DNA of 64,000 nt. Source: Chondrosia reniformis (lineage: Eukaryota > Porifera > Demospongiae > Chondrillida > Chondrillidae). Each line of letters begins with the position of its first letter. Position 1 is the stretch's first letter. The notes under the pieces were generated by a model. It ran no database searches. It worked only from the letters and a program-made list of their open reading frames with translations, and was not told the DNA's origin. The DNA lies in assembly GCA_947172415.1 (NCBI GenBank), contig OX359190.1:4650001-4714000 (forward strand), given 5' to 3'. Position numbers and translations under genes: made by a program. Below are positions 142 to 42,954 of this stretch, in pieces.

Positions 142-3100
142 ATGGCCAACACAGCCGCCTTGACAAAGCATAGGTATGCTACTACCCTTATCAGTCCATC
201 TATTTGATGGCTTTTACGTGTACTTATCGTGGATTCATTTTTATAGGCTTCTATTTTCTTTTGCTAACCTTCGCAATATTGGACGTTTAAATCTCTGGAA
301 TAAAATGATGGTAGGTTTTGCATTAACATTTATACGTATGTTTTTCTTGCCAACGTGTTTAACATGAATACGAATCACAGTACATATTTAACATACTGCA
401 CATTCAAATAAGATTTTGAAGTTGAAATGTTTACTTACTTAAGTATTCTCTTCATGCTAGAGTTCTGTTGGTCAGACTGAAGAGGAGGTGAGTATATTGC
501 GCATTTTGTGTAGTGTATGATGTTACCCATTTAAGCTTACTGAACAATCGTTCCCCATCATTAAACATTTCAAAAAAGCGAAATTTGGGTGATCCAAACC
601 ACAGGTCTTCTTAAAGCAAGACTACTTAAAGTTTAAAATATCAGTAGGTGATTAAGATATACAGCAAAGTAAGATGAAACAGTTATCAGTGGACCTTCCT
701 CAGTTAAAGCAAAAAACAGTTGTTAAAATAGGTTGGTTCCCTATTAGGATATCAGATGTTTTGTCAATTCAGCTGAGGAAGGTCTGATCATTGAACCCTG
801 ATATCATCTGATTGTTTTGTGTTAACTGAGGTCAATATACAGTTGTAATTGTGTACATATTATATTCTGTAACTCCTTGTCCCTTAGGGTTGTGTTGTGT
901 TGTTTTTCAATTCTGTATAATTAAATATTTGACTTTTAACCTTTACCTTGTGGTTTTCAAATAGGAGGTGTTATTTGAGACCAGAAACCATGTTGGCATC
1001 ATCACTTTGAACAGACCAAAAGCCCTAAATGCACTAAATCTTCATATGATCAGGCAGACCCTTCCTATGCTAAGAGTAAGTTACCAAGTTACTTGTGGAA
1101 CCTGTCTGTACGTATAACATTTCAGTGTCTAAAATAACTTGTCATGAAAACATTGGTCTAGCTGATGGAGAAAGGGAGAAAAGAAGCCTAATTGTATCCT
1201 CATCCAAAGCTCTGTAGGTTTGCCTTAAGTCATCAGTCTAAGAATATTTTAGTCTATACTCTTTATGTTTTAGCTTCATAGGCAGGGTAACCTTGGAATA
1301 GATTATTCATCTACAATGAGTAGACTTGTTTAGCTTTCCAAGCAGATATTGCATTGTAACCAGTAAACCTTTAGTACATCTTTTTAGATCATTCCAAAAA
1401 TGTTCTATTTCGGTAGTTTGTATTTTTCAATATATGTGCATCGAATTATGCAATATATTGGTTTGTAAATTCATGTAATATGTCATAAATACATTTACGA
1501 GAATACAACACATGTAATAAACTCTTGGAGGATATAAAGTGTTAGTAGTATTGTGATTTCTGTGTCTGATGAATGCCACCTATCCAACTTCCAATTATTA
1601 GTGGAATTCCATAATTGTATCTTTAGCATAAGAAAGGTCACATACCCCCATGTTCAGTATCCATGGGAACTATAGATTGTACCTGTTGATCTGTTAAAGT
1701 TATTAATTCTTAATATCCAGGAAAGTGTTGCATGTAAATATGTTTCTGTGTACTTCATGGGATGTTGTTTATGTTTGCAGCGCTGGGAGGAAGACCCTGA
1801 GATAGGTATGATAGTAATGAAGGGCGCAGGTGGAAAGGCTTTCTGTGCAGGAGGTGACATACTAGGTCAGTGGGAACTAGATTTTCTGAATATAGGTGAT
1901 TGCAATATTCAAAGGTTTAATGATGAATAGGCATGCCATTTTAGTATAGTAAATGTACAGCAGGTTATGGCTTTTGGTTTTGTTTGACATGTATTGTCAT
2001 TGATGTGATGTGTGGGGCTTTTTCTACTAGGAATGATTAGAAACTGTAAAAGGCATAGTACATAAATGATATTAATTCAGACCTCTAGTTGCTGTACAAT
2101 TGCTTCAAGGAAGGAACTAAACAATGTTGTTAGTCCAAAGGTCATGTGGCTGGCAAAGCATCCTGTTAGTCTAGCAGCTAGCCCCTATATTTCCTCTTCC
2201 TGTAATGAGTGATATGGGCTAGCCTAGCACCCTTGTTTGATCAGTTTGTTTCATTTACACTTTGTTTCACTGTTTACTATTTGGAGGCCGAGTGAATGGA
2301 TATTTTCTTTCACTATACTTGAATTCAAATATGTGAGATTTTACTGAATATTTGTATAAGAATGGTTAAAATATTCTTTTCCTGGAAATACTTTTACTTT
2401 TTGCAATTCAAGTGAGCATATTTATTATTCGTACTGTCACAGTTCCAAATACCCTTTTTCATGAAAGATCATGAAAAAGGGTATTGTAAACTTAACAGTA
2501 TGTACTATAGCAACTACTTAAGGTAGTACCCAGTGTTAGGCTGTGTAAGTGTCTGTTGACTTTTATGTTTGCCAGCTGTCACTAAAGCAGCAAGATCTGG
2601 TGACTCCTTGGCCCAGGACTTCTTCAAGGAAGAATATCTTTTAGACTATAACATTAGTGAGTTGATATTTGAAATGACAGTGTTGTTTGTGTATATAAGT
2701 TACAGTCAGTGTACATAAACCTGTTTTTTATTTAAGTGTTCATTTTATTTGGCATTCTCATAGTGCAGTGATAGTTGATTAAACAAACTATTGTGACCTT
2801 TCTGCAGTAAATTCACAGGGGTATCAAATTTTTCAACTGCATTTCATATTAAGCTGTTGTTGTATAATTTTGATCTTCACCAGGTAAGGGACTTGCTATT
2901 TAATATAAATACTGTACATGAATGATCTAAAACACGCCATAATCCAAAGACATGGTTACCCTGCCTATGAAGAAGCTATGAAAACCTAAGGAGAATAGAC
3001 TAAAACACAATTATTCTTAGACTAATGACTTAGGCAAACCTATTGAGCTTTGGAAGAGGATACAGTTTGGCTTCTTTTCTTCACTAGGATCAGACAGCTA

Positions 3101-6100
3101 TTTCTGGGAATTCCACCCTTCATTTAGTGATGCTAGGAGTGTTTGTTTTCTTCATGATTTATTTGAGTATTTCATATTTTTATTGTTGACTCTTAAGTTG
3201 TTAGTACTGCAGTGTCCCAATTTTAGAGGCTTCACTACAGCTTTAATATTGAGTTAGCATTACCACAGAATGCAGTGCTGTAAGCTATATTAGGTGCTTA
3301 ATCTACACTTCCTGCTAGCTAAGATGTTGTCAAGACTACTCTGGGTGAGGATGGTATTACCCTTGCAGTCATATGACCTGGGCTTCTGTAAACAATCAAA
3401 AGATAACAATTAATGTTCAACAAGGTTAAGCCAATGGGGAATATTTAAAATGGCATTTTTGAGCCAGTTCATTTCACTGGATTTCATTTTTGGATAGATG
3501 TCATTGGGTCAAATTACAGATATTTAGTCACTCCAGAGATGAGTAAGATATCTCAAAGCGAAGCCCAAAAGCACCTGGTAGGAGGAGTTACAATACCAAT
3601 AATACATTTAGGTTACACATTTGTGGCATGCCTTACAAAGGGGTATGGTCAGTAAAACAACCCAGCCATAAAGAATTATAGGATCACCTCCAAAATAGAA
3701 TTGTTTGTGGCTGTGTAGGTGCACAAGGGGATGTACTCATATTTATAAAACTACAAGGATGTCTACATGACATGAGCTGACTGATTGATTACTGATTTAG
3801 ATAGGTACATTTAGGTTAGTACAGACCAATGTTGACTTCAATAATGCCAGCACTGGTTTGGATGGGAGAGAGTATGAATTTGGTTTATATGTAGTGTTAT
3901 ATCTGCCATTTTCAAGTAATTTCCCATTAAAGCTTGTTGGCCCTAGATAGGCAATTGTTCTTATTTCTAAGTTTTTATATTCTTTGAAGTCCTGTCTACA
4001 CATTATCTACACTATGTATACCCTGGCAGTACTCTTGGCTGAAATCTACAGAAGTGTGTAAACAACTTGTAGCGAAATTTCATATTGCAAATGATTTGCT
4101 AATTGATAATGTATGGCTGTCTTGTAATAATGTTATGTTCAAGGTTCAGTTCTAGGTAGCTTGTATCCTGTATTGATGTGTGAATGTCATTAACATTTAT
4201 TTAGCTTTTATTCTTTCAGTATGCATTATAAACAGTTTGGTATCATTTCTCACATACTGAATGACATATCATTACCACTAAACTTTGGATATTACCCCCA
4301 CCCACTCATGTCCCCTGAGGAGCAAAATGAGCTAATGGGCAGAACCAAAATTGGCTTGCTGGGAACTAGAGTCTCCCCCTAGACACTCAAAAAGATGGTC
4401 AAACCATAGACAGCTGTTTTGTCCTTATTAGGAGACTCATCAGTATGTCAATGCTCTTAGATCAGCTTCTAATCTTAAAGTTCCCCTATTTTTTCCATAC
4501 TGAATAACCTTTAGTCACTCCATAGTTACGTATGTTCAACAGTGTGTAAATGCACTGTAGGTAGGTATGTATATATAAAAGCCTTTGACCTGGCCCTGGA
4601 TATGCCACACGCTGCAGCCTGCATAATGGGATCTCCTGTGGGACCTATTACTCTGGTGCATTAGACATGGAGGTTTAAACATGTCTCTTAAGTCCAACTG
4701 CTCCCATATGGCTTCTGTTTGTACATTTCCCAAGCCTATGAAACCTGCACATGAATGAATCCTGCACATGAATGAATCCCTTTCCTTTTTCATTATGATA
4801 GACTTAACCAGATCAAGCTCACATGGTCAGTATAAGATTTAATCATACTCTGTACAATTACCACACCTAGCACTGAGGCCTTTGTGTATAATAGCATAAC
4901 CAAATTTGTTATGAAGATCGATGTTTAACAGTCTAAAATATGGTCATTCATAAGTTTATCAGTGACAAACAGTTTTGGTTGGTTTGTAAGGTTGTATGGT
5001 GTTTATTACATGGGCTCTAGCATCATTAGTTCTAAAGTCAAGTTAAAGTAGTCCCTTACCAGGTAGTTTATCCCTGGATATATTCCAACACATATATTTT
5101 AAATGTATTTCTTGCCAAAGGTCTGAAGTAGGAGTTAACTAGGAATCTAAATTCCTCACTGCGAGATGAGTCATTTCTAATATGCTGGCCTTTAGCATTT
5201 TCTCACAATACATTCTAAAAAGATATATTGAATGATTCTCTGTATGTACATAGGAGGATACGGAAAACTGAGTTTACCCTTTCACATTTGATTTTAGGGT
5301 ATTTATCATCAAATAAAATTGCCAACTTGCAAATTTAATGGTAATGCAGCTTTGTTGCCCTGTAGGATTTATGTATAGTGTGACTGATAGTCACTAGCTT
5401 GTTCTATTGTTAGTATGCTTCGATCAATATATTCATTCAACTAATATTTGATGTCCTGTACTATAAAACACCCACTATTAGTGTATATATTGTGACTTTG
5501 GTATATTCAATTTTTAGCCATATTTTAAATGCGGTTACTTAAATTGTTGGATCCTATGCTTGCCTTTTCCAAACATGACATGATAAATATTTGTACTGAA
5601 TACACTGACTGGAAAGCATTTATAATATGTATACCCAAGGTTTGAACAAACTAACAGGGACTTGCTATAGTAATCCTTGAAATAAGAGAGAACTAAATAG
5701 GAAATTGGCCATTACTGCTAAGTATAAGCTCTAACATAGGTATATATGTTTACAAGGATTCACATAAGATCAAGATAGATCGAGTAGAGACAAAGACTCC
5801 CAGGATCACTGATGAGCCTGGAATCGCCAGAAACAGCTTTCTGGCCCAGTGGAGAAGATGATAAAAGTAGATGAAAGAAAGGAAAAGAAGAAAGAAAGAC
5901 TCCTGTATCTTCATCCAAAGCTTTCTTCAGGTTTAGTTCCCGTATAGGCTTTTTTACAGAATAGGCATAGCATGTAGGAAAATAGTATATTAGATTTTTA
6001 ATGTTTAGAAATTTACAGTACTTATATACATATTTTTGCTTTTTCTTAGGTAAATTGCAGAAGCCCTATGTTGCAATGATTGATGGCATCACTATGGGAG

Positions 6101-9100
6101 GAGTAAGTGGTAACTAGTACACTAACAATGCTGGGCTTGTTTGAAGTTTTAATTCTACCATTATAGCACATTATACAATTAATTTGTCTCCTTCTTGTGT
6201 GCTGCCCATGTTTCAAAGTTATCATCATTTCTTTCAAAGGTGTCATCTCTTTTTATTTATTTATATACATAATGTTGCAACCATGCATTAAACATATAGT
6301 ATAGTCTTTAATATAATATAGTCCTTTAAATTAAAAATTTGCAAACAATGTAGTTCTTTTACTTGGTCAAATTGAAATTAAGGATTGAAAACATTGTAGT
6401 CAATGTGATTGTCCTTGACATATACATATATTATATATACATATATATACTAGATTACCTTAGTATTTTGTAACTTGTACTGTATATATACAGTGCAAGT
6501 TACAATATACTAAGGTAATCTAATATAAATAAATAAATATATATATATAATAAAGAAGTTAGTGCAGTTGCAAACTGTTGCTGTAAGCATTAGGTGATGG
6601 CTTTCATAATTTAAAACTTTAAAGTAAGATTTCCTTTATAACAATATACGTAGATTTATAGCAGTTTTAAAAGTTCTATTGTTATAAAGGAAATGGCTAT
6701 CTTCTCTGGATTATCGGGAAGTTAACATAAACAGAAAATGTTATCTACTGCATAAATTTGATGATTTAACAAAAGCCGATTTGAAATTATGTGTACAGTG
6801 CAACTTCGATTATCCGAACCTCGTTTATCCGAACCCTCGTTTATCCGAATGAGCCCAGGGCATTTGCCATTTTAGTGTTACATCATCTATTGATGATGTA
6901 ATACTTAAAGTTGAAGTTTACACATGTAAAATGGCCTGTAGAGCCTTGAAGTGTAAACGAGTTGTGTTGTCGATCGAAGACAAGCTAAGATGTTTGAAAA
7001 GTATTCATTGACGGTAATTGCGGATAAATATGGAGTTGGAAAGAGCATAATAGTAATCCTTATTTGTGCTTTACATGTAATGCATAACATATTTATGTTA
7101 TTATAATCAATAGTAGAACAAGTTCTGTTTCACTTCAGTTATCCGACCTTTTCAATTATCCGAACACTTGATTCAATTCAACTGACCACAGGGGTTCGGA
7201 TAAGTGAGGTTGCACTGTATTATGTGTGTATTACAGGGAGTTGGTTTGTCAGTTCATGGATGGTTTAGAGTGGCCACAGAGAAGACGGTATTTGCAATGC
7301 CAGAGACTGCTATAGGTTAGTGTTGTGTTGTTCTGCATTAGCATTTATACTAATACCTTTGTGGATGATCTAGTATTTCCTCACCATCTGACTCTAACTT
7401 CTGAGGAGCATAATGAGCAAAGGGTGGAATCAGAATATGCTTGGTGGGAACCGTAGTCTCTTCCTTATCCCCTGACCTAGTAATGTAGCCAAAGTTGTGT
7501 CAATGAGGTTATGCTACCTTGTTATCTACTCGTGATAATTATAATATCTGCAAAAGTAGGGGACTTTAAGGTCTAGAGCCAATAAGGGAATATCTCCACT
7601 CATTAGCTCATTGCTTTCCTCTGTAGACATTGGTAGATGGAGGTGAATCCAGAGTCCAATGATGATGGCAAAGTTGTATGTATGTTTCATGTTAATTACA
7701 GTCAAATACATAAATACCACTTTCTTGTATTATGTACTCAACCTGTAATCTGCCACAATTGGTTCAGGTATTTTTGTAGATTAAACATTGTTGGCAGATT
7801 ATATAATACAAATTAAGCCAGTTTATCACCTGATGATGTCATACATCAAAGACACCCCCAGGGCAGTAAATCGTTTACCACCCTACGATCAGGGCAGTAA
7901 ATCATAAGTGCCCCCTAACACCTTCCTTTTTTGGACTTTGAGCGGGAAGGCAAGGGCAGTAACTCAGACAATGTTTCTCATAACAACCTCCTTATATGGC
8001 ATTTATCACAATCTTTATGCCAGAAAGATCTTCTTGTTGATTGTGCATCGTTGCTTGTACAGGTACAGCAATCTGGAATGTACAATTGTTGAAAGTGCAC
8101 CCACTAAAACTTGGTATATTAGGTACTGGTAAAGGCTGCACATTATTTGGTGGTTCTTCTCAATGTCCAGTTGCTTTCTACTTTCCAGTGCCTTACACAC
8201 TTGGATCTCCTGTAGTGCACTAGTTCTCTTGTACTGCCTCATGCCATCTGTTGAACGGTGGCCACTTCCTTCCATCATGAGCTTGTCAGGAACATTAGCT
8301 GCAAACATTTTAGTCACACCATAAGTGCGCAGGCTGTGGCTTATAACAGGCTTATCCAGGTTGCCTTTTATAGCCATCATTTTCATCATATCAGACAGTT
8401 TATTTCTTCCCAGAGGAACTGTAGTAAACCATGGAGCAATTGAATCTTATGGACCTATAATCTTTGGTCTTACATAGAAAATGTCCTTTTTTGCTTCATC
8501 TGGCAATTTAAATATGTATTTATCCATCAACAAAACATGGCATCTTTCAATATCAGCACTTTCTTACTGGTGAACAACTTTGTTGGCCTGACTCAGTTGC
8601 TTAAGACCTCCACTCTATTCTTGGACCTGCCGCATTCAGTGCAAGTATAGTGAACAAGCTGCTTATATTCAATGGTAACTGCTTCTCTGCTGAATTGAGA
8701 GAATTCTAACTCACTATGTTCCACGCCTCCTCTTAGTCAAACATTTTGACCATTTAAGAAAAATATGAAGTTTAAAAGTCCTTGAGGGGTATCAGGATTC
8801 AGTACTCCACTGGTCCAGAGTTTTCCTCCTCACTGTCAGTAAGCACTTGGGTTTTCTTGACTGAGCAGTGCAGCTTCCGATAGAGGGAATCCAAAAGAGT
8901 CCTGAGTGGCACAAAGTCATTGTCGTACATGAAGTTGATCATTGATTTATTTTGAAAGCGTATGTACCTTTGAATACCTAAGAGGTAATGCTGAATAGTT
9001 TTAGGAGGGTAGTGTTCACCATCTTTCTTCCTGACTTCGATACTCAACTTAGATAGCCACTTACACAGCTGAATTGTATCACCGCTAAGGAGAATGTTAT

Positions 9101-12100: not shown

Positions 12101-15100
12101 GATTGTGTTTTGTAGTCAACACACTAAAAAGAACGGTGAATGTTTTTGTTGATAATTGTCTCCTACAATTACATAGCCAGTCCATTCTGCTCCGTCGTGC
12201 ACATCAGTAGTATGGCTAGCACAACTGGATAATTCTTCATCTTTTTTTCTGCTTCATCCACTGTTTTTTTAGTGTCCCTACCTATTGTAGTTTCATCCTG
12301 ACCTGAAGTCATATTTTTATCCATGTCTAATGGTAAATCCAATGGTTTACATGGTTCAATGTCAATAAATGACTCATTCAATGTAGAAGTGCTATACCCA
12401 GTTGTGGTAGGAATTAATGTAGAATCCTATGTAAACATAATATATATAATTACTGCTAAAGCATACATAATTCACATGCTTGTGTATACCTCAATCAGAG
12501 AGCTTAACTGATTTTACAAAGAATCTCGCCAGCAAACCACATCCTTATCAAATTCATAGTAAGCCTCATCAATTGCATTCAAAGTTCACTGATGAGTTAG
12601 GCATAGCATCAGTGGTTGCAAGCATCTGTATACCTGTGATATAGAGGCAAGCATGCAAGTCAAGTCCACTTGCATATAACATTGCATGTACATGTACATG
12701 TGCAACTCACAAACCTGCTTATTGCATCCATTTTCATAAAGGAGAACTGATATACACTTCTGTAGATAAGCTAAAGCTGTAGTCTTTCTCTTCAGGAGCA
12801 TAAAGGCTATCAGTGACAACAGTGGCTTGTTCTTGTTGGGGCTGATAACCAAGCTGCTAAGGAGGTTCATTATTAGCGGCATGTGCTTGGTCAATTCATC
12901 CCAAATTCTGGTCCAGGAAAAGGTTACTAGGTCCATGCTCTTTCCACCAAAAAAGGAACTTTGATTATTTGATGACATATATTTCATTTTTTTCCTTACT
13001 TCCCTTGAAACAGCTTTATCATCACCTTCCCATGCATTGATGTCTGCCAAAGAGCACAACAGTGGAAAACTGCACCTGACATTACGCCTTACACCTCTCC
13101 TACTCCTTGGAGTTTTAATTATATAGGTCTTGGCCTTTGGTTTATAACTTAAAACCACCTGGATTCAGACAGGATAGAAACTATATTTAACGTATTATTC
13201 ACATATGTATATAATAATATGTAATATATACAGTGCAAGTTACAATATACTAAGGTAATCTATGTAATATAAATATATGTATATATGGAGTAGAGGTGTC
13301 TAGTTGCAATCTCACAACCACTGGTGGGCACTTGGATAATTGTCCATGGTTACTTATCTGTGTGACAGTATCTTTCAATTCAAAACGAAAGACCTTGCTA
13401 GGAGGAGTAGCTACACTCGAAGAAGCGCGCTTTCGGTCTGTAGCGGGACTTAAATCATTCGCAGTTTCTTGTGGAAGCACATCTAAATGATTTATTATAA
13501 TCTTTCTGATGTGCCTCTGTACTTTCAAAAGTCTTTCCAAATCTCTCAACCTAGATCTAACTTTTAATTGTTGCACAGCCAAGCATCATCGATCTTCGTT
13601 TGCTAAAAATCTGCTGTGGTCTTTGAGCAATAGGTCTGTAGCAACTTTTCCAGCAGGTGCCTATCTTCTGTGCAAGATTTGATATGTAACCTTTTTCCTT
13701 TTCTTGTCCTTCTGTACCTCCTTTGAACACAAACAACACATAACAATTTCACTAAACTGTGTCGCTTTAGAATTGATTGCTCGAGGTGAGATTCACACGT
13801 CTAAATGCGTATGCGTTATAAGTGCGTTTATCATCGTCTACCACTTACGGAACACTTCGGGGCCAGAACAAAAATGATATAGGCAATTGACCACACCCTA
13901 TCTCGCCAACCGTATGATGTCATCATAGCAGGTGAGATAGAAGTCTGGGCTATGCGAGACTATATAAGAAACTATAACTAATTGATCAATAAAATCGTAT
14001 TAAATCTGCATCAAGCAGAAAGAGTGTATTGTGTGGCTTATGGATGGAAGAATGGCTATATATGTGTGAACATGGTGTCAGCTTTCCACTGAACAAACCT
14101 AAACTACTGGCACTATGGCTTGCACAAATGAGGCTTGAAACCCCACCACTGAAGGAATACGACAGAATGTGTTTAGAGCATTTTACAGACCTGAAGTATA
14201 TAGAAATGGATATTATTTATTTATTAATTACTAAGTCTCTATGAGAATTAATGAGGCACAAAAATTGATTTATTTTATATACATACCTATTCTGAATTGG
14301 TTCAAATTAAGGCAGTTCTAAGCATACCTCCATGTAGGCAGAGAACTGGGAATTCAGTATATGAAGTAATACAACTAATTTCCGCTGATTTTGTTTGCAG
14401 CTCAACCACTTCTCACCAGCACAAACACTCATGTTCTGTCTGCATAGCTATACAAGTGGTACAAGCACACCAAGAAACTGAGCCTACATGGGACAGAGTT
14501 TCATGTAGTTGCTCATTTACACGTTTCTCTTCATCTTGTTACTCTTCCGTTGTCGTATTGTTTGACAAAGTCGGTTCATATAATAGATCTCTCTGCCTTG
14601 TTAACAATAATCAAAAGGATTCAAGTATGTTTGACTACATCCTAAGTGACTCTATTTCAAACCACTCTGCCTCACTTCAACTGTGAATTATATAGCATAT
14701 ATGCACACTGTAGGTCTATATGTTATGAACTGTACTATTTTATGTTTTCTCTACCAAGGCTTGTTTCCTGATGTTGGTGGCGGGTACTTCCTACCTAGAC
14801 TTCTGGGTCATCTTGGATTGTATCTAGCATTGACAGGTAATTTCAGTGGTTGTTTACAGTTTTAATTTCTGCATGAATTGCCTGCAAACAGATATCTCTA
14901 TTAGACAACCTTTTTAAATGAAAAAAAATAGGGACTTTAAGATCTGTGTCCTCTATTTCTTCATATTTAGTGATATTTAGTGATCAGCCACACTTCGTCT
15001 GTAACCCTTATACGATAAGGAAACCACAAACTCTTTAGGTTTTGGAGTATTCATCAGCAGATAGCCACTCAAACGTCCATTGCCATACTGATGAGTCCTA

Positions 15101-18100
15101 ATAAGGACGAAACAACTGTCTATGGCTCGACTATCTGTTTGAGTGTTTAAGGGGAGACTCTGGTTCCCATCAAGTGAACTTTGGTTTCACCGTTTTGCTC
15201 ATTGCACTCCTAAGGAGACATAATTGGGTGGGGTAAAATCCAGTCAAACTACGTATGAGACAACCTTTCTAAATTATCTTGACTTACATTTCGTGTATCT
15301 CTCTTTTTTGTTATAGTTATAGTTACAGTATCAGAAATTTACACATTGCTTATCAGTGTATGATCTTTTGCTATATATATATATATAAATTTTCCGATCA
15401 AACTATTGTAATACTTCTTCTTATTAGGCTTTAGGTTAAAGGGACGTGATGTACACTCTGCAGGAATTGCTACTCATCTGATTGGACGTGAAATGGTGAG
15501 GTATAAATGATGTGTCGCTTGTATGATCCACTTGTAAATTGTCCACTTTACAATTAAAATGACGACATCCATCCTCTTAAGAGTATGGCTTACTAGACTC
15601 TCCCAGGTAAACACCCAAAGGTGCTGATTGGAAAGGAAGGTCCAACAGCAGCATGGTAGATTAAATAACACTTTTTGACTAATCAGATTTTACTGTTTAG
15701 AATCTGATACAGGGATATTCGTAGACTTTGACAAAAAAGGAGGTAACAGGATGAAATGTTAGGATTGAAACATTCAAAATACCTGTTAAATTAACTTGAG
15801 ATATTCTACACAAGCCAAGCGAACTGAAGGCAAAAGATTATTAATGTGTTGGATACATAATCCCAGCATTTATAAGTTGATTGGCATAGGTAGTAGTGCA
15901 GGACAGGGTTACAATTTCTTTTTGATCAATACTGTATACCGTTAGATATTATACTAATGTCTCTGAATTAATATGTACAAATTTGAACAATTTAAAGCTG
16001 TTTGAGTGTGGTTATATGTACACTCTACATACGTTATTAGAGTCCTCACTATAGAATACGAATAGACTATTATCAGAATGTAATTGTATTCTAAACTTTT
16101 GTAACCTCTGAAGTCCGACATTCTTCACTCCTCATTTAAGTCACATTGTAAAGATTTCACTGTATAAATCTTTTGTTGTATAAATACCAATATTTTACTC
16201 CCAGGAGGAAGCTTTAACTCAGTTTCTACCCTTCCCTTCAAGTATTAAATTTGGTAGTAATGCTAGCAACAGACCTACTATGTTTCTGTAGCTCCAATCA
16301 GTGGAAGATTGTCTCGTTAATGACCTTCCAAGGCAGCCCCATTTGGATGATGTACGAAATCTTTTGGATGAATTTCACAAGAAGGTATACTGTAAATATG
16401 TAGATGTGAGAAATGTAGGATAGTAATTTAATCAAAACCAGTTAAAACCTGTTTTTAATATATACGTATGTATTAGTGAATTAGATTTCCTGCATGATAT
16501 TTTAGGTATTTCTTGATTGATGATAGACTACGTATATACATGTGTATTTAAAGTGCTATGGAATTATTCCTAGAGTTCTTCTGTGGATTCAAAGGACTTC
16601 TGTTTGGCTGACCGACTAGATGCAATCAATAAGTGAGTCTCAATCTCAATAAACAGACTCTTTCACATTCACTTTTATTAAAGAAAGACAGAATGGTAAA
16701 ACTACTATTCATCATATGATGATTATGCTGCTACAAATAGATGCTTTTCTGGAAACGAGGTAGAAGATATTGTAGCAGCTCTACAGGAAGATGGATCACT
16801 ATGGGGCAAAGAGCAAGTTGAGGTTAGTTGGTGTTTATTACTGTCTTGTGATAGTTTACATTGATTTAGCAGCATATAACATAATTTCCAATCAGCTGGG
16901 TTGTGGTATTCTTGTATTGTGTACAACTGTTAGCAGTTGTGCCACTGCTTGCTGGTAATGGTAAAGTCTTTGACATTTTGTGTATGTTATGCCTAGTTTA
17001 GCCACATCAGTTTTAAGAATGTATTACTAAATTTAACCTGGAATTGGTAGGACAGTTAAACTTAATGATTTTTTCTTTTTACAGATATTATCAAAAATGG
17101 TGAGCAACATACGTAAAACTGCTAATCATTCAGAATTCAGAATTATAATTCTAGGTTTATAGTAGTGTAAGTGTTTACAGCCCACGCTATATAACTAGTG
17201 ATCCATAAACATGACCTCACGTACATTAATATTATTACATAAACACCTGTACTAACAATGAGACAATTAAGAAGCAGTTTGTTGGTGTAATATTACAAAT
17301 ACTACTGCACAATAGCTCTCTAATACAGTACAACTCATTTACTATTTCCTATATATATTGTCACATTAAAAAGCCCGATTTCTTGATAATTATGAAAAGT
17401 ACTTATATAAAAGTGAATGGTCTTTATAATAGTATTGTAATTTCCTTCTTTACAGAACTTTCCTATATTTTTGTACACTTAAAATATTAGGGATAAATAT
17501 ATACGTGCGTACATGTAACTCTTTAACCTTAACTATCTTGTTGCAAAGTTTGCAAAACTCTAACTACAGCGTAGCTGACAGAATTATAATAATAACTATA
17601 TACGTATATTACGTAATGTACGTAACACAAAGAGTTTTGCATCATCATTGCAGTTTACGTGCGTTCAGCAATCTGATCGGAAGTGCCGGAAAATCAGATC
17701 CTTGCACATAACTTGAATACAAGTTAGACCAGACCTTACTTTTCAATGCGAAGCGGATGTAAGGTCTGGTTCGCCAGACTAATAATGAAGCTACTACATC
17801 TGCATACACTATGTATCCTCCTGCGTTTGATTAATTAATCTCTATCCTTGCTGTTGTAGTCTCCAACTTCCCTTAAGATAACCCATCGTCAGTTAAAAGA
17901 AGGAGGAAAGTGCCTTCTTGATGACTGCCTAAGAATGGAGTACAGAATGAGTCAAGGATGTATTGTAAGCTTTAGTAGACAGGTCTTCCTTACAGCATTT
18001 TAACAGATTGGTCAGATTAGCAGATACACTGGTGACTTTATCTTTGATATTTAAGATAAAATGAGGGGCATACGGAGTTATATAATGCGCTTATATTTGT

Positions 18101-18995: not shown

Positions 18996-19360
18996 TATGT
19001 ATTAGTTATACCATGGCGCTGAGGTATATATGGCTTTTATACGTATGAGTCACGAGGGCGCATAAAATTCATATACACCGAAGCGCCGTGGTATCAGTAT
19101 TTATACTCCGTTGCTTTTTATCGTCGTTTTGGCGGGACTTTCAGGATGGCTCTGCTAGCATCTGGTTCTTTTTGCTTAAATGCTGACGACTTCATAGAAT
19201 GCTCTTGCTCTGACTACTCCAACTGTCCTAAATGTAAGGAGAATTGTTCATCCCCCCAAGAAGAAACGTCTTAGTTAACCGTATTTGGGCAGGGATATAA
19301 CAGGGTTTAAGAAGCCGATGCAGTATATAGCTTCTTAAATCCTGTTATATCACGGTTACG
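18996..19360. mobile_element. Inverted-repeat MITE, copy 1, with a Cys-rich short ORF
   Basis: Begins GTATTAGTTATACCATGGCG; arms near 19010-19045 and 19060-19100 are inverted (ATATATGG...; ...CCGTGGTAT). The copy at 22317-22480 shares both arms and the tail TTTTGGCGGGACTT. A 42-codon frame at 19146-19274 starts in this tail and encodes DDFIECSCSDYSNCPKCKEN, a tight Cys cluster. A second inverted pair (19276-19315 and 19330-19358, AACAGGGTTTAAGAAGC against GCTTCTTAAATCCTGTT) closes it. It lies between the two convergent genes. Confidence 0.55.
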
Positions 19361-19706
19361 AAATTTAAACACAGGCGGTTGCCCCGGCAACGAAGTATAT
19401 ATATATATGTATATCTACATTGTAAATGGACAACTGATGTAGGCCGAACGTTCAGGGTCACATGTAAATGGGAGTCCTCAGACCTTTCCTCATCAAAGTT
19501 ATATTTCAATGACATCAACCTTACCTCCACACATCTGCATGGATACGCATAAAAATGAACCATTCATCCAATGAAACATAACTGAGCAAAATAATCTAAC
19601 CAAGGCTCTTCAGCTTCTATTTCCAGTTGGGTGGATGTAAGATATGTTACTATACTTAAGTAATAATGTAGTTACATATATTGTCAGTATATTAACCAGC
19701 ATTCTA

Positions 19707-22700
19707 CTAAAATCCTCTCTGATTGTACTTCTTTTGAGCTTCTTTCTTCCTGTTGTGGTTGGCAGTAAAAGCTTTGTTTTTCTCTTTCCTATTATGTTGT
19801 CTCAGTTCCTCTTCCTTATGGGAAGAACCCGTCCTTTGGTCATGACTTTTTATTGAAAAAGTAGATGTTGCACCTTTCTTCAAATTCTATAAACAAAGAA
19901 ATTTATGTTAATAATTTTAGTGATAACTGACTTTTCACGAACCATAATCTAAAAATTAGTAAATGCCCAGTGAGTTCAAAAGGTATGCCCTTGCTGAAGA
20001 TTATACACTACAGAGTATAACATGATAATGATTCCTTGTAACTTATCAATTCTTTTGAGACTTTACATTGTCTAAAAATGCAGTTTGAATTAAATCTCAC
20101 AGTCGAATGTTTTGACCAATCAAAAGTGTGTTTATCAGAGAGTACGGTAGTACTCTCTATGTAGGGATGGTACCAGTTGTTTCTTTTTCCCTATAAATTT
20201 GTTTAAGAGCAAAAATCTGAAATCCGAAAACCGCCAAAAAAGGCTATTTGTAGTTAAAAATAGACCAGCCATATGCTATAAACTGGCCTTTAAGGCAAGC
20301 AACCGTGTTCCATTTGCAAATGAACAAACTTTGAAATATCCCATTTTCGTTTTCTTCTTCATCTTCTTTGGCCGCTGTAACTAAAAAAGGAAATCAGCTT
20401 TCGGACTACTTCTTAAGCGAAAATACTCCAAATTTTCCGTGCTGTATTCTTTTGTAGAAGCAAGAGCGATAACATTTATTATTGAGTATGACAGTTTTTG
20501 TGGCCCAAGAGTCAAGGCTTCAACTTCATAATCAGTTGAAGATTGCGAAACTGAAATGGTATTAAATATAAATCTAATTCCTAGCTTATGCTCCATAAAA
20601 GTATAGAAACTAGTGAACAATAAAATTTTCTACAAAAATAGTAGGAGATGTAGGTATGGCACAAAAAGCACAGAAACAAGAAAGGGATGTTACACAGTGA
20701 AGCATTATTCATGCATGATTCATACAACAAGCTTGCTTGTAGGATTCATGCATAAATAATGCTTCACTGTATAACATCCCTTTTTTGTTTCTGTGCTTTT
20801 TATGCCATCCCTACCTCTTCTACTATTTGGTGCCTATATTGTTTTCAGAAGTTATGTTAACGTATGGCTTCCTGTTCGTAACCTTGTATATATATCTGTC
20901 AAAAAATGGTGGACTTTCAGTTGGCTTTCGTTTACAAGCTTAAAATTAGCTTTCTCTTCCTTAGAGTAGAACATTGAAAGAACAAAATGGACTTTAAAGC
21001 CAACCTTACTAATACTATGTAACGTAAAGTATGCGCAGAAAATGTCTGCAAGATATGGTGTTTAATTTAACGGCAATCAAGCAATGACCGGAATCGCTTA
21101 ACCAGATATCTAAGAATCAGCAAGTAGTTCGAGTTTTGAGGGGGTGTCAGGTGCCCCATGAGTTTTTTAAACTTGAAATACTAGTTTTGTAGAAAAAGTT
21201 TATTGTAAGAGTTGTGAGATGTACTGTGCATACATAGAGAGGATATGTAATATAGGATGCTGGTATATGATGAAATATAGTAGTCAGCTATAGATATGTA
21301 TCTATTATATAGATATATATTACTACATAAGAATTTCCTCTCTTGTATAAATTATACAGGATGATTTAACCCTTTAATGACCGTTGACGATATACATCGT
21401 CATGATAATTATATGCACGCAATAACCGTTGACGATATACATCGTCATAGATAGGCGGCAGGCTTTCCCGGCGAATTATTAGCATATGCGCGGCCAAAGC
21501 AAACTCTAACAGGTGTTAAGTGGTCGTCAGACAGTTGCACTTTACGATTAGTGCACACAGGTGGCAGGAACCTTCCCTCCGTGGCGAAAAAAGCCTTCGA
21601 ATTAACCATATACGTACCGTGTGAGTGAAGAGAACTGACCAGGCTCTGAATGCGACCGCATAGGGTTAGGGCTAGGTTTAGTGCCTGGTCCGTTCTCTTC
21701 ACATGATTCGAAAGGCTAAACTTGACGAGAATCCACTTCCTCAGTCGTAAAAACAACCTTACCTTACACGTAGCACTTACGTACTTCACGTGGCCTTCGA
21801 AAAAGTCAGTCATAAGGTATAGGTCCGCCCACGCAATAAGTTGGCGCGGAAAGGGTTAATGTAATGCCCTCAACAGGAACTACATGTACAGTACATAGTT
21901 ATATGAAAGACCAATTTAAACTGCTTTGATAAACCTTATTAATCTCTATATGGCTAATTCATTGAGAACACATTATTAATTGAATAAATGCAAAGGAATA
22001 AATTCTACTGAACCTATGTAACATTGTATTTACCTGAGGTTTTCTAGTGCTGTATCCCTTATGCTGTGACTGTGACCCATGCTTATCATTCTTTCCATGA
22101 CCATCTTTTAAAGGTACACCACCATGCTGGGCTTCAGCTGTATTCTCAACAGTAGTCTTTCCATTGTCCTCATTTCCTCTATGGAGAATAATATACGTAT
22201 ATATAAATATATGTATATGTTATACCCTAAACTTTTATGACAATATGCCCATTTTGTTTTTAGTTCCTTTCTTGGAGCCATATGAATTATTTATATTATT
22301 TATTTATTTATTTATTTATGTATTAGTTATACCACGGCACTGAGGTGTATATGGATTTTATATGTATGAGTCACGAAGGCGCATACGAGTACGAATAAAA
22401 TCCATATACACTGAAGCACCGTGGTATGAGTGATATATACTCCATCGCTTCTTATCGTTATTTTGGCGGGACTTAACTACTATCACCTTACAGTTTAATT
22501 GCTACAAGACAAACTGCAGAGACATAAACTAAATCAGGTTTGTCAGTTCTAGACACCATTTTAAATTGCTAGTGCTATATTTAGCCAAATGCAATGCTAG
22601 AGAACAAATTAGAGATATCTGAAGACAATTGAGTAAAGAGTACAATAATGAAAAAAATTACCAATCAGTTATAGGTGGAAATAATATTTGAACTACGTAT

Positions 22701-25700: not shown

Positions 25701-28700
25701 TCATAATGACCTTTGTAATGATTAATTGTATAGCTACTTTTCTACTTTAGTTAAGTACTTACAGCAAGTAAATAACGGAAAAATTGTGAACAAAGAGGAT
25801 CAGCTTAATAAAGCAGACAATTGAACTGCATGGGGGATTAGGTCATGAACTCTCCTAAGGCTAATAAACTTAGGTGTTGTAGTCTGTCTCCAATTTATTA
25901 GACATACAGATCTTTTAAGAATCATCTACATCCTTACCAGTGCAGCTCCTATGACTTCATCACTATTTGCTGTTTTTCCATTAACTGATTCCTTGGAAAA
26001 AGCTGTACACTTCACAGGATTCTCACATTTTTGCTGCTCCAAAATGGCTGTCATTGCTTCTGTCAGATATACCCTATTAGCCTCATCACTTACAAATTAT
26101 TTAAGGAAAATCAAAGAAAAATGGCTGACTTGAAAGTAAAAAGTCGAAATGCAATTATTGGACATCATGCAATTGGAACTGGCTAATAACAAAGCAGTCA
26201 AAATGTCTCAAATCTCAAGTATATATTATATATCATACCTATATTGTTACTTCAGCTATATAATTGATATATAAATAATTCTTATGTCTGCAGAATTTTA
26301 GGAGCTGGATTTGCATAAAATTGGTCCAAGAGGTTATTGTTAAAATTATACCTTCCAGATTTCACAGAGTATAGATACACATATAATTCAGTATTTGTCA
26401 GTAGGAGTAGGTGTTAGGCTTTAACTGTATAAACTCCCTCTAAAGTACCCATTAGGTAACACATTGACAATACGGATTGTGTGAGTCATACCTTACCAAG
26501 TCACTGCATGGCATTTGTTGACAAATTCTAAGCTTACTGAAAAGCATGCTTATAACATACATAGGTAAATGGATACATCAGCTGCTTGTTGGCTTCTAGA
26601 ATCAGTTGTACCAAATCAAGAAGATTGTATTGCCTTTGTAATTGACGTATAAAACTACAGGTATCAAAAGAGGTAATAACAAACAACAAGGAAGAAATGT
26701 CATCTCTAGATTGCATCCCACCCACTTGTGCCTCCTGAGGAGCACAATGAGCTAATGTGTAGAAATAAACTACCGAAGTCTCCTATTAGCTATCAAACCA
26801 TAGGCAGCTGTTTCTTCCTTATTAGGACTCATAAGTATGGCATACAGTGGAAGACTAAGTGACTACTCAACTCATCTGTACAGAGCACTGTACACTGTAG
26901 ATTGATTGCTGTAGCAATAAGCTCTATTAAAATAATGAAGGTTATCAAAACACCTAAACCCTCTGGTCCCAATGTGTTCAGATAAGTAACTTTCTACTCA
27001 ACTACAAATATTACGAATCTCTATGTACTAGGGAAAATTTCCAATAGCAGCAATGGCTGATGACCATAATTAGTGTCCACATACATACACTAGCCCTTTA
27101 TATTATATTCATAATTGTCTAATTCAAGGATATCCTCATTACACACTTCTTACTCTGTTCTAGAACTTGCCCACATCCCGTGGTTAGTTAGCCACACGAA
27201 ATGAATGGCTACAACGCACACCCACACAATCAAATTGCTCACTTCTTCTGTAGGCATTACAAATGTCTTTCTACCAGTCAGTGTACTCAGCAGTAACATA
27301 TCATGATCACATTTCAATAATTTAATATAGTAGAAACTTAATATACAGCCAATTAGCATTATACGTACATACATAATGGGTAATAAAATAATGTCAACAG
27401 AAGTGAACTAAAAAATGACAGTCATATCTATGTATACACTCACTTTGCTGATGATAACAAGGTCATACAAATTGCCAGCAAATCTTCACCTTTATATGAC
27501 CTTCATATTAAAAGATGTAGTTTTAGTCAATAAATACAGTTAGTGGATTCATGTAATTGCTATTATTAACATATAAGTGATGCAATTGCTGCTAATGTCC
27601 TTATTAACAGGTCTTATGGATGTAGTGTAGCTACTAAGGTCAACTGTTCATGTAGTCATGTGAACAGAGGTTAGTACAGCATCCACATAATCATGGGTAA
27701 ATTAATACATAATATCTATTCATATACACATGCATGTCCAGAATGAAGAAACTTACTTATTTGAAGATTCTATAAAGCATTTTTGAATCAACAAATGAGC
27801 TAAATTAATCCAATTCTCTTTTGCCTGTCTGAAAGCAGCTTTTTTACTATGTACAAGAATTAATATGAAGGTGGAATTTGAACAAATAAACCAATTACCA
27901 TTGGCAATACTATGTTGTGGTGTATGTTTTGTAAACTGGTCTATTGTGGACTTTCACAAAAATTAGACACTATTCCAAATTTCCAAAATTGGACCATCCA
28001 ATCAGGTTTCACTAAACATTGAACGATTAATTATATAGTCCAGCTTTCGCATCATTGACAATCTTAATATCACACTTGCATGTACATCCAAACATTAAGA
28101 ATATTTAAAATTTAGATATGTCAATCTTAAAGCTTCAAATATAAGATACACATTAGCTGCTTCCCTATCCTGCTGATAAGGAACTACAAGCTTTATTAGA
28201 TTGTGAAAATACCTTTAGGAAGACAAATTACTCATATTTCCATCTTATATATAATATACTGATTAATCTAGGGTAGGACTAAAAAGCTTTTTGAATGGCA
28301 TAGGGTAAATCTGGTTCCCATTGGGTATATTTCAGTCCTAATGGCCTGTTGGCTCATTGTGCTCCTCTAGAACATGAGTAGATAGGGTAGATCCAAAGAG
28401 AGTGATTTTTACTTTTCTTGCTGTTTTTAGCTACAGTGCCTACGAAAGTTAGATCACTGGTATTGATTGATCATAAATCTAATGTAAAATATGACTTAAA
28501 GATTTAGTTTCAATTGTAGATAAACAGAGTGACCTTATCACTTCTCCCCTTTCTGTCAGTAATTGAATATATTTGTGTTTAATCTCCACATATAGTGTAA
28601 GTCTACGAGACCAAATTCTCATGTTAAGAAATTACAAATAAACAAATCTGTACTAAGCTTTAATTAACCACGTAGATTATCACTAGATAAGAAGCTTCAT

Positions 28701-31700
28701 ATGAGTTCTACATGAGCAGGGTATCAGAACATAAAAAGTTATTATATATCTACACTGCTCAAAGAAGGATGACTATGCAGCCATCACGTAAATCCTCCCC
28801 CACAGACTAAATGGTCGCAGAAAGTCTAGGGCAAACAAACCTAGCCTAGCCTAGTTAGTCTATGAGGGAGAAAACAGCCTGAGGAAAAGTGGACTTCTGC
28901 GGGATTTGAACCTGTGACCTTCAGCTTTGTACGCTGCCGCTCTTGAAGTATACACTGAGAATGTATACAGCGATTATCTAGGTATTGTGGTTCTTAGGGA
29001 GGATCTGTAACTCTTCTGCTGGATGGGCTTCTTAGCTCAAAAGGCAGAGCGTCAGCGTACAAAGCTGAAGGTCACAGGTTCAAATCCCGCAGAAGTCCAC
29101 TTTTCCTCAGGCTGTTTTCTCCCACATAGACTAACTAGGCTAGGCTAGGTTTGGTTGCCCTAGACTTTCTGCGACCATTTGGTGTGTGGGGGGAGGATTT
29201 ACGTGATGGCTGCATAGCTCCTTCTTTGAGGAGTGTAGATATATAATAACTTGTAATGTGTAGATAAGAACCGGTTGTACATAATATATCAACAAACATA
29301 AGAATATATTAACATTAACATTACCTAAAAGTGAGTTTCTTTACAAGACTCTGCAGCAAGGGATAAGTGTCTTCATAAAATGATATAAGAATAGGAATAA
29401 CATTGGCTTCACAGAAGGACTGCTGAACAAAGCTGCCAATCTCAATGAAGGTATAAAGGGATGATGCAGTGTCTGACAGAAATAATACATAGTCACAAAT
29501 CTTCTCCTCATCAGGCAATCTATAATTACATAAACAAAATTGATGGCAGTTATATCAAAGTATAAATGTCTGTAGTAAAAGGCTCCTAACATACAAAATT
29601 ATGTGGTCAAATCTTCAAATTTAAAGTACATTAAAATCTCCTTAATTCAAATTCTGATATTTCAAATATAATGCTTAATTCGAACTTTTCTCGATGTACC
29701 ATTTCTAATGTATAGAATTTAGGCTCATTAATTCAAAGTTACAAATTAACATAATTGCAGATAATTAGAATCTCAAAGGTATCTCTTTTTAAAGATTTTG
29801 GCAGGAAAGAAGAGTGTTGCTAAAAAGATAAGAGTATTAGATTGCATTATATAGCAAAAATGTTAGACAAAAAATATAAGGTGTTGAAAGATGTAAATAA
29901 CAGTTTAAAAAATGTGGCTGTAGCAACCAAACTTGGAATACCTTTGAACACCTTATCTGGATGATGCACGAAAGACACCAATTCAGTAGAAATTGATCAG
30001 TAGTCTGCATAAGAAAACACGAATGGGATGTTTCGAAGACATAGAAGAAGCTCTCAAAATCTGGTTTCATGAAGCACAGAAACGTCATCTTCAAATTAAT
30101 GGGCCAATATACTACCCAAGGCCACACAATTAGCAGAAAGGCTTGAGATCGTGGACTTCCAGTACTCTGTAGGATGGCCTAATTGTTTTAAGATTAGGTG
30201 CTGACATACTCAATCCATTTAAGCTTTTTATTGTTTTTGTAACCTTGCAGTGTATTGTAGCAATATGTATATCAAAGTCCTTTTAATTAGAATATCCTGG
30301 ATAATTAGAACATTTTCTCTAGCCAGACCAATTCTGATTAATGAAATTTCACTGTATATTCCGGTAACAAGTATACTATCATACTAGAAATTTAAGTGTA
30401 TACTAAAATACTAGCCACTGCTTAACTGCATAATTTAAATACATATATATAGTTAATTGTCACTTTCAATAGTACATTATTAAACATAGCCATTAAGAGC
30501 TTTTAGATTGAAACTATAAACAATTAAATATTTTCATTGATATCGGAGTTACTAAATTAGAGTATTATTTTAGCTTAATATATGTCATGATAATTACACA
30601 ATCTGCTATAAAGACTTGTAGAGTAAGGATGTTTCACGGATACATACCCATTGATTCCACCCTCAGAGAGAAGAGATATATCCCTTGAGACACTTTGCAA
30701 AACCTAAAGTGCATTAGAAGGCCATCACATGTACAAGAGGCATATTTCTAAAAACCTGCTAGATATCAAATGTTTAGTACACCATTTTAGACTATACCTT
30801 TAATAATGCTGAAATACTGGCTTTTATATCCTTGTAATACCTAATATGTGTGTACAGAAATTACATGTATATATTTATAGGCACCTTAATAATATAGGAA
30901 TACAATAAATCAGAGCAGCTTTAAAGATTATGCAACTATCATCATCAATGGCACAACACAATTCAAGACAGGTGTAGTGCTTGCCTAAACATAATATACG
31001 GCTAAAAGCATGTATACATACTTTCATGACATAATACATATACTAATATACTAATGGCAGCCAAGATCCATGGAGGTGGCACATGTGAGGCAAGTGGCAG
31101 CTAAATCAATATCTAGCTAGATACCTACTCTATTAAATGTACTCGTGCATTAACTCCACTTACAGATTCATACTTGCATAAAATTCAGCCATACTAAAAT
31201 ATTTTGATACAAGAATCACAATTGTTGCTGGTGTTAAAAGGTTTATGAGTATGCCTACTTTATACAGAGTGTATGATTCGCTGTGGACTTAAAATGACAT
31301 CCAAAAACAAATTTTGGAATAATCTTTTTATTAAATGTTCAATAAAATTTCTACTTCCAAAATTAAAGAAGTCAAAATACATTTTTACACTTGCTCCATA
31401 TGCTGCTATATAATCTACTTTAAATAAAACTAAAATAACAACACATGCACTTAAGTAATATGTATTCTGATAAGTAATCTCACTTTGGTTGCTTCTCAAA
31501 CACATTTGCTAACATCTTTGTCAAAAGTTTCTTATTGCCCTGACTGTATAATTGGCAGAGATCTAGCATCTTTGGTATGTCAAACAGATAATTGCTGTAA
31601 ACAACATCTCCAAAGGCATCTCCATGCATGAAACATTCTGATGTTTCCTTATGTGTAGACATTCTCAAGTAGACCAAGAATACTCTCTTATGAACATCTT

Positions 31701-42015: not shown

Positions 42016-42292
42016 AGTATAGTTATCAACATTCTGTCCTCCATTAGTGAGTAGTACAACCTCCACTGATAGAATAGCCAGTAAGAGTGCTTCAACTGAT
42101 ACATTCTTAATTATAGCAACTACATAACAAACTATACTCACATTCCTGCAACCTGTAAATGCATGATACAATATCTTATGTACTTGAGTACTGGCTGCTG
42201 GAGTACTCATTGGCCATTGACAGAGTAGTGACATCTGATCTAGTAAAGGAGAGGGTGACAGTGCTGTTTGTGATATTAATGGAGTAGGAAAA
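42016..42292 (-). CDS. Two exons of an unidentified minus-strand gene
   Basis: Exon A 42292-42153 (TTTCCCCTGTAG acceptor, donor ACAG/GTTGCA) and exon B 42119-42016 (TTATGTAG acceptor, donor ACT/GTGAGT) join in phase to give PTPLISQTALSPSPLLDQ, MSLLCQWPMSTPAASTQV, HKILYHAFTVAIIKNVSVEA, LLLAILSVEVVLLTNGGQNV, DNYT. The protein looks helical and hydrophobic like part of a large armadillo-type or regulatory protein. It may be upstream exons of the gene ending at 34574. Not recognised. Confidence 0.45.
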
Positions 42293-42346
42293 CTACAGGG
42301 GAAATTTAAGATCTAAAGGCAATCTTAAGGCTTTGATATAATCATA

Positions 42347-42715
42347 TCCAGAGTTCAATGATGATGATATCAATGCTCTAACATCAGTTGTAAATCTTAA
42401 AGTTCCCCTATATTAAAAGATCAGCCACACCTTTGGCTGTACCCCTTATCTGCTTATAAGGAAACCACAAGCAAGCCTTCATTTTGGGAGTACTTGCTAC
42501 CAGACTAGCCACCCTAAACTTCTATCGTATGCCATACTGATGAGTCCTAATAAGGACAGTACAACTGTCTATAGCTTGACTATCTTCTTGAGTGGCTAGG
42601 GGTAGATTCAGGTTCCCATCAAGGGAACTTTGGTTCTAACCTTAAGCTCATTGCACACCTCAGGGGACAAGAGTGGGTAGGAGTAATATCCAGAGTTCAA
42701 TGATGGTGTACTTGA
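42347..42715 (+). mobile_element. Hammerhead-1 repeat bounded by a direct repeat, unit about 347 bp
   Basis: ATCCAGAGTTCAATGATG occurs at both 42350 and 42695, bracketing one complete unit: CTTAAAGTTCCCC, GATCAGCCACACC, the ribozyme region 42531-42575, GGTTCCCATCAAGGGAACT and CTCATTGCACACCTCAGGGG. The ribozyme keeps GCCATA, CTGATGA, GTCC/GGAC and the GTC site, but GAAAC is AGTAC, so it should be inactive. Unit plus start of a second is the tandem layout of retrozymes. Confidence 0.7.
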
Positions 42716-42857: not shown

Positions 42858-42954
42858 TAGTCTCGTACCCAGCCCCAACTTCCGCAAAAATGGCTGACGC
42901 CATCTTCTGCGGCGTCAGCCGTTTTTGCGGAAGTTGGGGCTGGGTACGAGACTA
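42858..42954. repeat. 44-bp-arm near-perfect inverted repeat, GC-rich
   Basis: TAGTCTCGTACCCAGCCCCA and onwards is inverted at GGGGCTGGGTACGAGACTA; arms continue through TTCCGCAAAAA.GGCTGACG with one mismatch and a spacer of about 9 bp (ATCTTCTGC). Much more GC-rich than its surroundings. Confidence 0.75.

Follow-up and report, generated by a model that had tools for sequence, protein, structure and literature searches.

A family of hammerhead ribozyme repeats in the genome of the sponge Chondrosia reniformis has insertions built like those of Penelope-like elements, and comparison of their sequences makes it quite likely that they are inserted by a Penelope protein from two start sites. The family was reached from a single ribozyme in a stretch of 64,000 nucleotides, referred to as the window (assembly GCA_947172415.1, contig OX359190.1, positions 4,650,001 to 4,714,000 of the forward strand). 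By the features tested it is a sponge retrozyme family of the non-autonomous animal kind, that without long terminal repeats (non-LTR). Retrozymes are already known from animals, and Penelope has been proposed as their helper; what appears to be new, as these comparisons suggest, is the Penelope-style anatomy of the retrozyme copies.

The hammerhead repeat as a retrozyme family

The window ribozyme had been described in a sequence-only reading, whose coordinates, core and helices match the sequence. Helix I (GCCATA/TATGGC), CTGATGA, helix II (GTCC/GGAC) and GAAA can be read directly, helix III has 2 bp with the loop AACT, and the GTC ends at 15120. Against the Rfam hammerhead model RF00163 the ribozyme scores 35.0 bits (E 4.9e-5), above the gathering score of 34 by a margin of just one bit. 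Scanning of the window with Rfam up to E≤5 identified no second hammerhead.

The genome searched comprises 117,379,552 bases in 15 contigs, one of which (C15) bears COX1. RF00163 is matched at E≤1e-3 by at least 65 of 73 scored candidates (11921 in the first look), a set that does not contain the window copy, and at least 51 are above the cut-off. The core pattern CTGAYGAGN{8,16}YGAAACN{2,8}GTC has 309 matches in the genome (152+157), versus 2+0 for the reversed pattern. The repeat is thus a dispersed mobile family, as had been claimed.

The loci fetched, selected for the core, contain 32 distinct hammerheads. Helix II is paired in 127 of 128 cells. Two-sided changes are present at pairs 1-45 (mostly GC or AT), 5-41 (mostly TA or CG) and 15-26 (TA or CG), counted as sequences and not as independent events; these represent few events, because most of them separate two families, A and B. 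The tetraloop is AGCT in 30 of the 32, with a few more AACT in the genome-wide pattern list. The usual helix III, ACAGCTGT, is a palindrome suited to dimers; the AACT of the window copy is not the family norm.

Reference units were taken from array copies, with unit position 0 at CTGATGA. Unit A (L070) is 359 nt long with a guanine plus cytosine (GC) content of 0.43 and a longest ATG frame of 51 aa; unit B (L022) has 354 nt, a GC content of 0.45 and a longest frame of 40 aa. L070 carries four intact cores in tandem at 359-nt spacing, and other loci have arms of more than one unit. A unit length of 170–400 nt, GC below 50% and no open reading frame (ORF), the features of a retrozyme unit, are all found. 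Predicted unit circles are strongly self-paired, with energies of -110 and -121 kcal/mol, whereas 50 mononucleotide shuffles of each average -81 and -85. Lacking an ORF, the retrozyme is not itself a Penelope element.

The 91-nt window region 15060-15150 has a fold that is equalled or beaten by 1 of 200 shuffles (z -3.3), owing partly to an outer helix beyond helix I. Helices I and II are present in its centroid fold and in its minimum-energy fold, the latter together with pairs foreign to the hammerhead. The equivalent region of the type B reference is only slightly more stable than its shuffles (z -1.2), of which 24 of 200 do equally well.

The Sm-alpha repeats of Schistosoma and the newt satellites have a type I hammerhead, a repeat of approximately 330 nt and a palindromic loop suited to dimers. 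We know of no two-ended insertion anatomy for either, and the sequence of the sponge retrozyme differs from both. Newt satellite hammerheads are also covered with the metazoan non-LTR retrozymes of Cervera and de la Pena 2020 (PMC7229834). The sponge family resembles those retrozymes in its type I hammerhead, noncoding units of 170–400 nt, tandem copies, duplications of >4 bp and weak helix III with a tetraloop. It differs from them in its host ('sponge' and 'porifera' occur 0 times in the main text of PMC7229834) and in its head-to-head arms ('inverted' occurs 0 times there). The only 'sponge' in PMC4918200 or in PMC7761336 belongs to a cited title on microRNA sponges. Literature searches for hammerheads and retrozymes of sponges gave no sponge-retrozyme title among the matches listed, and no report of two-ended retrozyme insertions was found among the literature matches listed, judged mostly by title. 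The earlier suggestion that the family is undescribed is therefore likely to hold for that literature; transposon libraries were outside the search.

Outer ends of retrozyme and Penelope insertions

A total of 77 retrozyme loci were mapped, of which 66 were kept (18 type A and 48 type B). The 11 dropped as duplicates are at the same places as others (L023, L029, L031, L032, L038 and L026) or have near-identical flanks or structure by eye (L097, L111, L085, L086 and L037). Two head-to-head arms are present in 42 of the 66 insertions, with 24 counted as one-armed. The 108 outer ends of the 66 insertions are concentrated in two windows of the unit, alpha (47 ends) and beta (41), with 20 elsewhere; uniform placement would put about 12% within the windows. 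The median unit positions of alpha and beta are 184 and 224 in type A, and 172 and 228.5 in type B, a distance of about 40 nt and 57 nt, respectively.

The two-armed insertions generally have one end of each kind. There are 25 with alpha and beta, two with beta twice (L011 and L100), one with alpha twice (L072) and 14 with an end outside the windows, so that alpha plus beta accounts for 25 of 28 fully assigned pairs (P 1.4e-5 versus one half). In 18 loci fetched later, 24 of 31 ends are inside the windows, giving 7 alpha plus beta, 1 beta plus beta and 5 part-assigned pairs. The alpha and beta end sequences are unlike each other, with 5 and 8 of 20 identities, ungapped.

An exact flank repeat of ≥9 nt is present at 29 of the 66 loci, versus 2.1% of 1304 mismatched pairings. 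The target duplications are typically 9–15 nt and often one duplication encloses both arms, which would therefore have entered together. Duplications of ≥9 nt are found in 20 of the 25 alpha plus beta loci, one of these (L022) being low-complexity; the exceptions are L007, L018, L021, L084 and L104.

Partner arms share non-consensus bases. In type A these recur in the partner in 158 of 191 cases, versus 395 of 2529 between loci, and in type B in 86 of 279, versus 1084 of 11111. Because of this sharing, the arms appear often to have been copied from one template or to have been homogenised later. Raw arm-to-arm identity does not separate partners from others (0.940 vs 0.930, 19 type B loci) and was rejected as a test.

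At the junctions, 20 of 25 insertions join different unit positions and 5 join the same position within 5 nt. Four single-arm copies (L008, L034, L098 and L105) run from alpha to alpha over 358–360 nt, as one turn of a circle would give. Inner stops lie at alpha or beta in 14 of 47 alpha arms and 11 of 41 beta arms, a mild enrichment that is not part of the main evidence. Inner stops also cluster a short way upstream of the hammerhead, probably through selection bias, because the loci were found via the hammerhead. Three type B loci (L005, L006 and L027) have a common inner stop at unit position 298.

Penelope-like elements are present in the same genome, with at least 38 places matching GIY-YIG among 150 scored of 382 candidates. 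L073 and L050 have RVT_1 and GIY-YIG in a single frame. Directly after the Penelope ORF there is by eye a motif, CTGAGGAAGACCCCCAGGGTCGAAACGT, that can be called hammerhead-like only, since Rfam gave no match at E≤1 on 12 Penelope loci; the retrozyme hammerhead is unlike it in being canonical and recognised by Rfam. The retrozyme also differs from Penelope in having no ORF for a reverse transcriptase or GIY-YIG endonuclease (longest ATG frame 51 aa), the ORF being in a separate locus, L073.

The Penelope alpha end is at ...CCATCCCAAAGAT, and beta is about 37 nt further on. The comparison started from 15 chosen loci, left aside ends with <15 nt of flank, and gives results for 10 Penelope loci. 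Both kinds of end are present in five of these, four simple and one complex (Table 1). In each of the four simple loci an alpha end is paired with a beta end and the tail is about 37 nt long; duplications of 9–10 nt are evident in three of them and at two ends of the complex locus. L047 also has both ends, with a left flank common to L052; L052 has no clear duplication.

At L074/L076 (C12:806169-808632) a Penelope element is inserted in a type A retrozyme, at the beta end, and the 10-nt duplication of this insertion, AAAGGGAGTT, is retrozyme sequence. The flanks of retrozyme loci L034 and L036 and of Penelope loci L050, L055 and L061 are often CTAGTTGTATGTA-like repeat arrays, by eye. L051 (C2:5829689), which we take to be a permuted, Naiad-like element, has an open frame of ~711 aa whose first part matches GIY-YIG, the sole Pfam match, and whose following part resembles reverse transcriptase by eye; also by eye, it is surrounded by an AT-rich array resembling the one that flanks the L070 4-mer. 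An alpha-beta hairpin can be drawn in A, B and Penelope; a conserved hairpin was rejected, only B folding better than shuffles (z -4.3, against -0.4 for A and -0.3 for Penelope).

In published systems, the Penelope protein of Anolis cuts and extends both strands, starting inside the RNA, and the tail is the sequence between two start sites (PMC11167929). In rotifers, Penelope carries an inverted pseudo-LTR (pLTR) together with a tail of 31 bp and a duplication of 9 bp (PMC3846280). The retrozyme resembles the Penelope/Poseidon type in its inverted arm, partial tandems, tail of 30–40 bp at one end, duplication of ~9 bp and hammerhead (PMC11167929; PMC3846280). The Penelope hallmark, an inverted arm, a tail at one end only and a target duplication, is seen in the retrozyme, through the 25 of 28 assigned pairs and the flank repeats. 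The link to Penelope-like elements and animal retrozymes drawn in the sequence-only reading is supported both by the retrozyme features and by this anatomy. That reading missed the two arms, the two preferred ends and the target duplication, which are the clues to the mode of insertion.

The window copy and its surroundings

The window copy is of type B. The hammerhead interval given earlier is right, and the insertion is broader, extending over 14920-15257. Its short inverted arm was overlooked in the BLAST table. For its left flank, 0 of up to 3000 random 36-nt windows matched equally well, near-site draws being skipped. The insertion is in sense orientation within an intron read as 14837-15427, with splice sites judged by eye, of a gene whose upstream exon (Table 1) we take to be HIBCH-like. 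The host gene is metabolic, and its pre-mRNA could be cleaved by this intact, sense-oriented intronic hammerhead if the ribozyme is active. Other copies had been reported in the window; five places do match the repeat, none with an intact hammerhead.

Table 1. Positions of features in the window (no prefix) and of Penelope loci in the genome (prefixed by contig)
Feature	Position	Strand	Remarks
Two-armed copy, alpha and beta outer ends	4261-4501	-	GAAA changed
Two inverted repeat pieces	7401-7667	.	matches miss the hammerhead part
Host exon, enoyl-CoA hydratase family	14758-14836	+	PF16113 E 7.3e-9; 1e-17 joined with next exon
Left target-site duplication AGACAACCTTTTTAAAT	14903-14919	+	17 nt, 1 mismatch to 15258-15274
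Short inverted arm, outer end near beta (unit B 203-228)	14920-14945	-	14923-14945 aligns to unit B minus strand
Forward arm, end taken as alpha, last part diverged	14946-15257	+	14978-15243 aligns to unit B 234..156, 83% identity; beyond 15243 up to 15257 assigned from the target duplication, not alignment
Type I hammerhead ribozyme	15082-15126	+	RF00163 35.0 bits, E 4.9e-5; predicted cut after C15120
Right target-site duplication AGACAACCTTTCTAAAT	15258-15274	+	pairs with 14903-14919
Degenerate copy	26721-26881	-	CTGATGA and GTC changed
Weak remnant	28153-28387	+	68-72% identity; hammerhead core degenerate
Two-armed copy, beta and alpha outer ends	42283-42708	+	GAAA changed
Simple Penelope locus	C12:806169/808632		duplication AAAGGGAGTT
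Simple Penelope locus	C6:4372500/4375628		duplication TATATGTCC
Simple Penelope locus	C9:2894000/2895390		duplication GACTTGTTA
Simple Penelope locus	C6:4102645/4103386		no clear duplication
Complex Penelope locus	C6:3932339-3937185		1 beta and 5 alpha ends; beta and the alpha at 3936485 share AGTTATTAC

Elsewhere in the window, long hairpins at 6444-6529, 19281-19366, 20681-20781, 33589-33741 and 42862-42950 match Rfam microRNA families below the cut-offs; these five are probably fold-back elements. A tRNA-Cys gene with anticodon ACA was identified by ARAGORN at 29025-29100, with mismatched pairs in the Rfam alignment.

Mode of insertion

In metazoan retrozymes, Penelope has only been proposed as a candidate helper (PMC7229834). 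A curation guide states that retrozymes may depend on Penelope (PMC8969392), and a review that retrozyme repeats show no motif revealing the helper (PMC7761336). The following order of steps is proposed for the sponge family. The retrozyme RNA is probably cleaved by its ribozyme and may then be closed into a circle, by analogy with published retrozymes. A Penelope-like protein of the same genome would cut both target strands approximately 9–15 nt apart, and each free 3' end would prime reverse transcription within the retrozyme RNA, one at alpha and the other at beta. Each complementary DNA (cDNA) would be extended, by as little as 30 nt or by as much as several units, and its end would be joined head to head with that of the other. 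The expected product is a pair of inverted arms within a single target duplication, with alpha at one outer end and beta at the other. Both arms are probably copied from one RNA.

A more specific version, which is tentative and has somewhat less than an even chance, is that a single RNA circle serves as template for both 3' ends of a staggered break, through concerted two-strand priming by a dimer of the Penelope protein. The one-of-each rule would then arise because two primers on one molecule cannot occupy the same site, and the alpha-to-alpha copies would be turns stopping at their own start.

Several points weigh against insertion by a Penelope protein from two sites. No clear sequence at alpha or beta is common to retrozyme and Penelope, and for this reason it is the anatomy alone that points to the enzyme; L051, as a second Penelope-like element, could be the helper instead. 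The loci are not a random sample, having been picked because their hammerhead was intact or their similarity high, and the alpha and beta windows were fixed after the first loci had been inspected. The one-armed loci (24 of 66), the ends elsewhere (20 of 108) and the alpha plus beta loci with no clear duplication (5 of 25) do not follow the rule. The window copy itself is tabulated as one-armed with its end unassigned, BLAST having missed the short arm and the 3' end being diverged. Just 31% of type B variants are common to both arms, making the case for a single template weaker there. In Anolis Penelope the start sites are equal on the two strands, so that no fixed one-of-each rule is reported; the hammerhead is dispensable for insertion and the main template is uncut RNA (PMC11167929).

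Of the alternatives, mobilisation by a long interspersed nuclear element (LINE) through target-primed reverse transcription, with inverted arms generated as in L1 twin priming, survives best and is itself unlikely. Target duplications, and arms that share a 3' end but vary in length, also fit LINE insertions; in type B, moreover, the alpha end consists of (ATG)n, like the tails of some LINEs. Twin priming, however, leads to a variable second outer end, whereas in both sponge families the second end falls mainly at beta, and 25 of 28 pairs combine alpha with beta. An equivalent end pattern is seen in the genome's own Penelope elements, in a comparison confined to these.

It is slightly less probable again that this is an ordinary animal retrozyme with an unspecified helper, its Penelope-like ends being convergence or coincidence. 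The lack of a common end sequence would be expected in that case, yet the two preferred ends, their similar spacing, the one-of-each rule, the inverted arms and the similar duplications all concur.

Self-priming of the cDNA, or snap-back, was proposed earlier with an antisense template for rotifer Penelope (PMC3846280). It would account for the head-to-head order and for the five junctions at the same unit position, but equal outer ends would be expected from it, where in fact alpha plus beta pairs predominate, and the remaining 20 junctions join different positions; as the source of the inverted arms it is improbable. A non-autonomous DNA transposon resembling a miniature inverted-repeat transposable element, with a chance hammerhead, would have inverted arms and target duplications, but there are no terminal inverted repeats, alpha and beta being unlike, and the arm lengths and junctions are variable, with arms reaching several tandem units, so that it hardly merits consideration.

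Which enzyme inserts animal retrozymes, abundant elements that give rise to circular RNA, is a standing question in the literature. Insertion by a Penelope protein from two sites would make the question of the helper testable in any animal genome, through the two-site ends, and in the published in vitro Penelope assay. The rule of one alpha and one beta end and the variants shared between arms bear also on Penelope itself, for which they would indicate that two strands are primed on one RNA, rather than snap-back.

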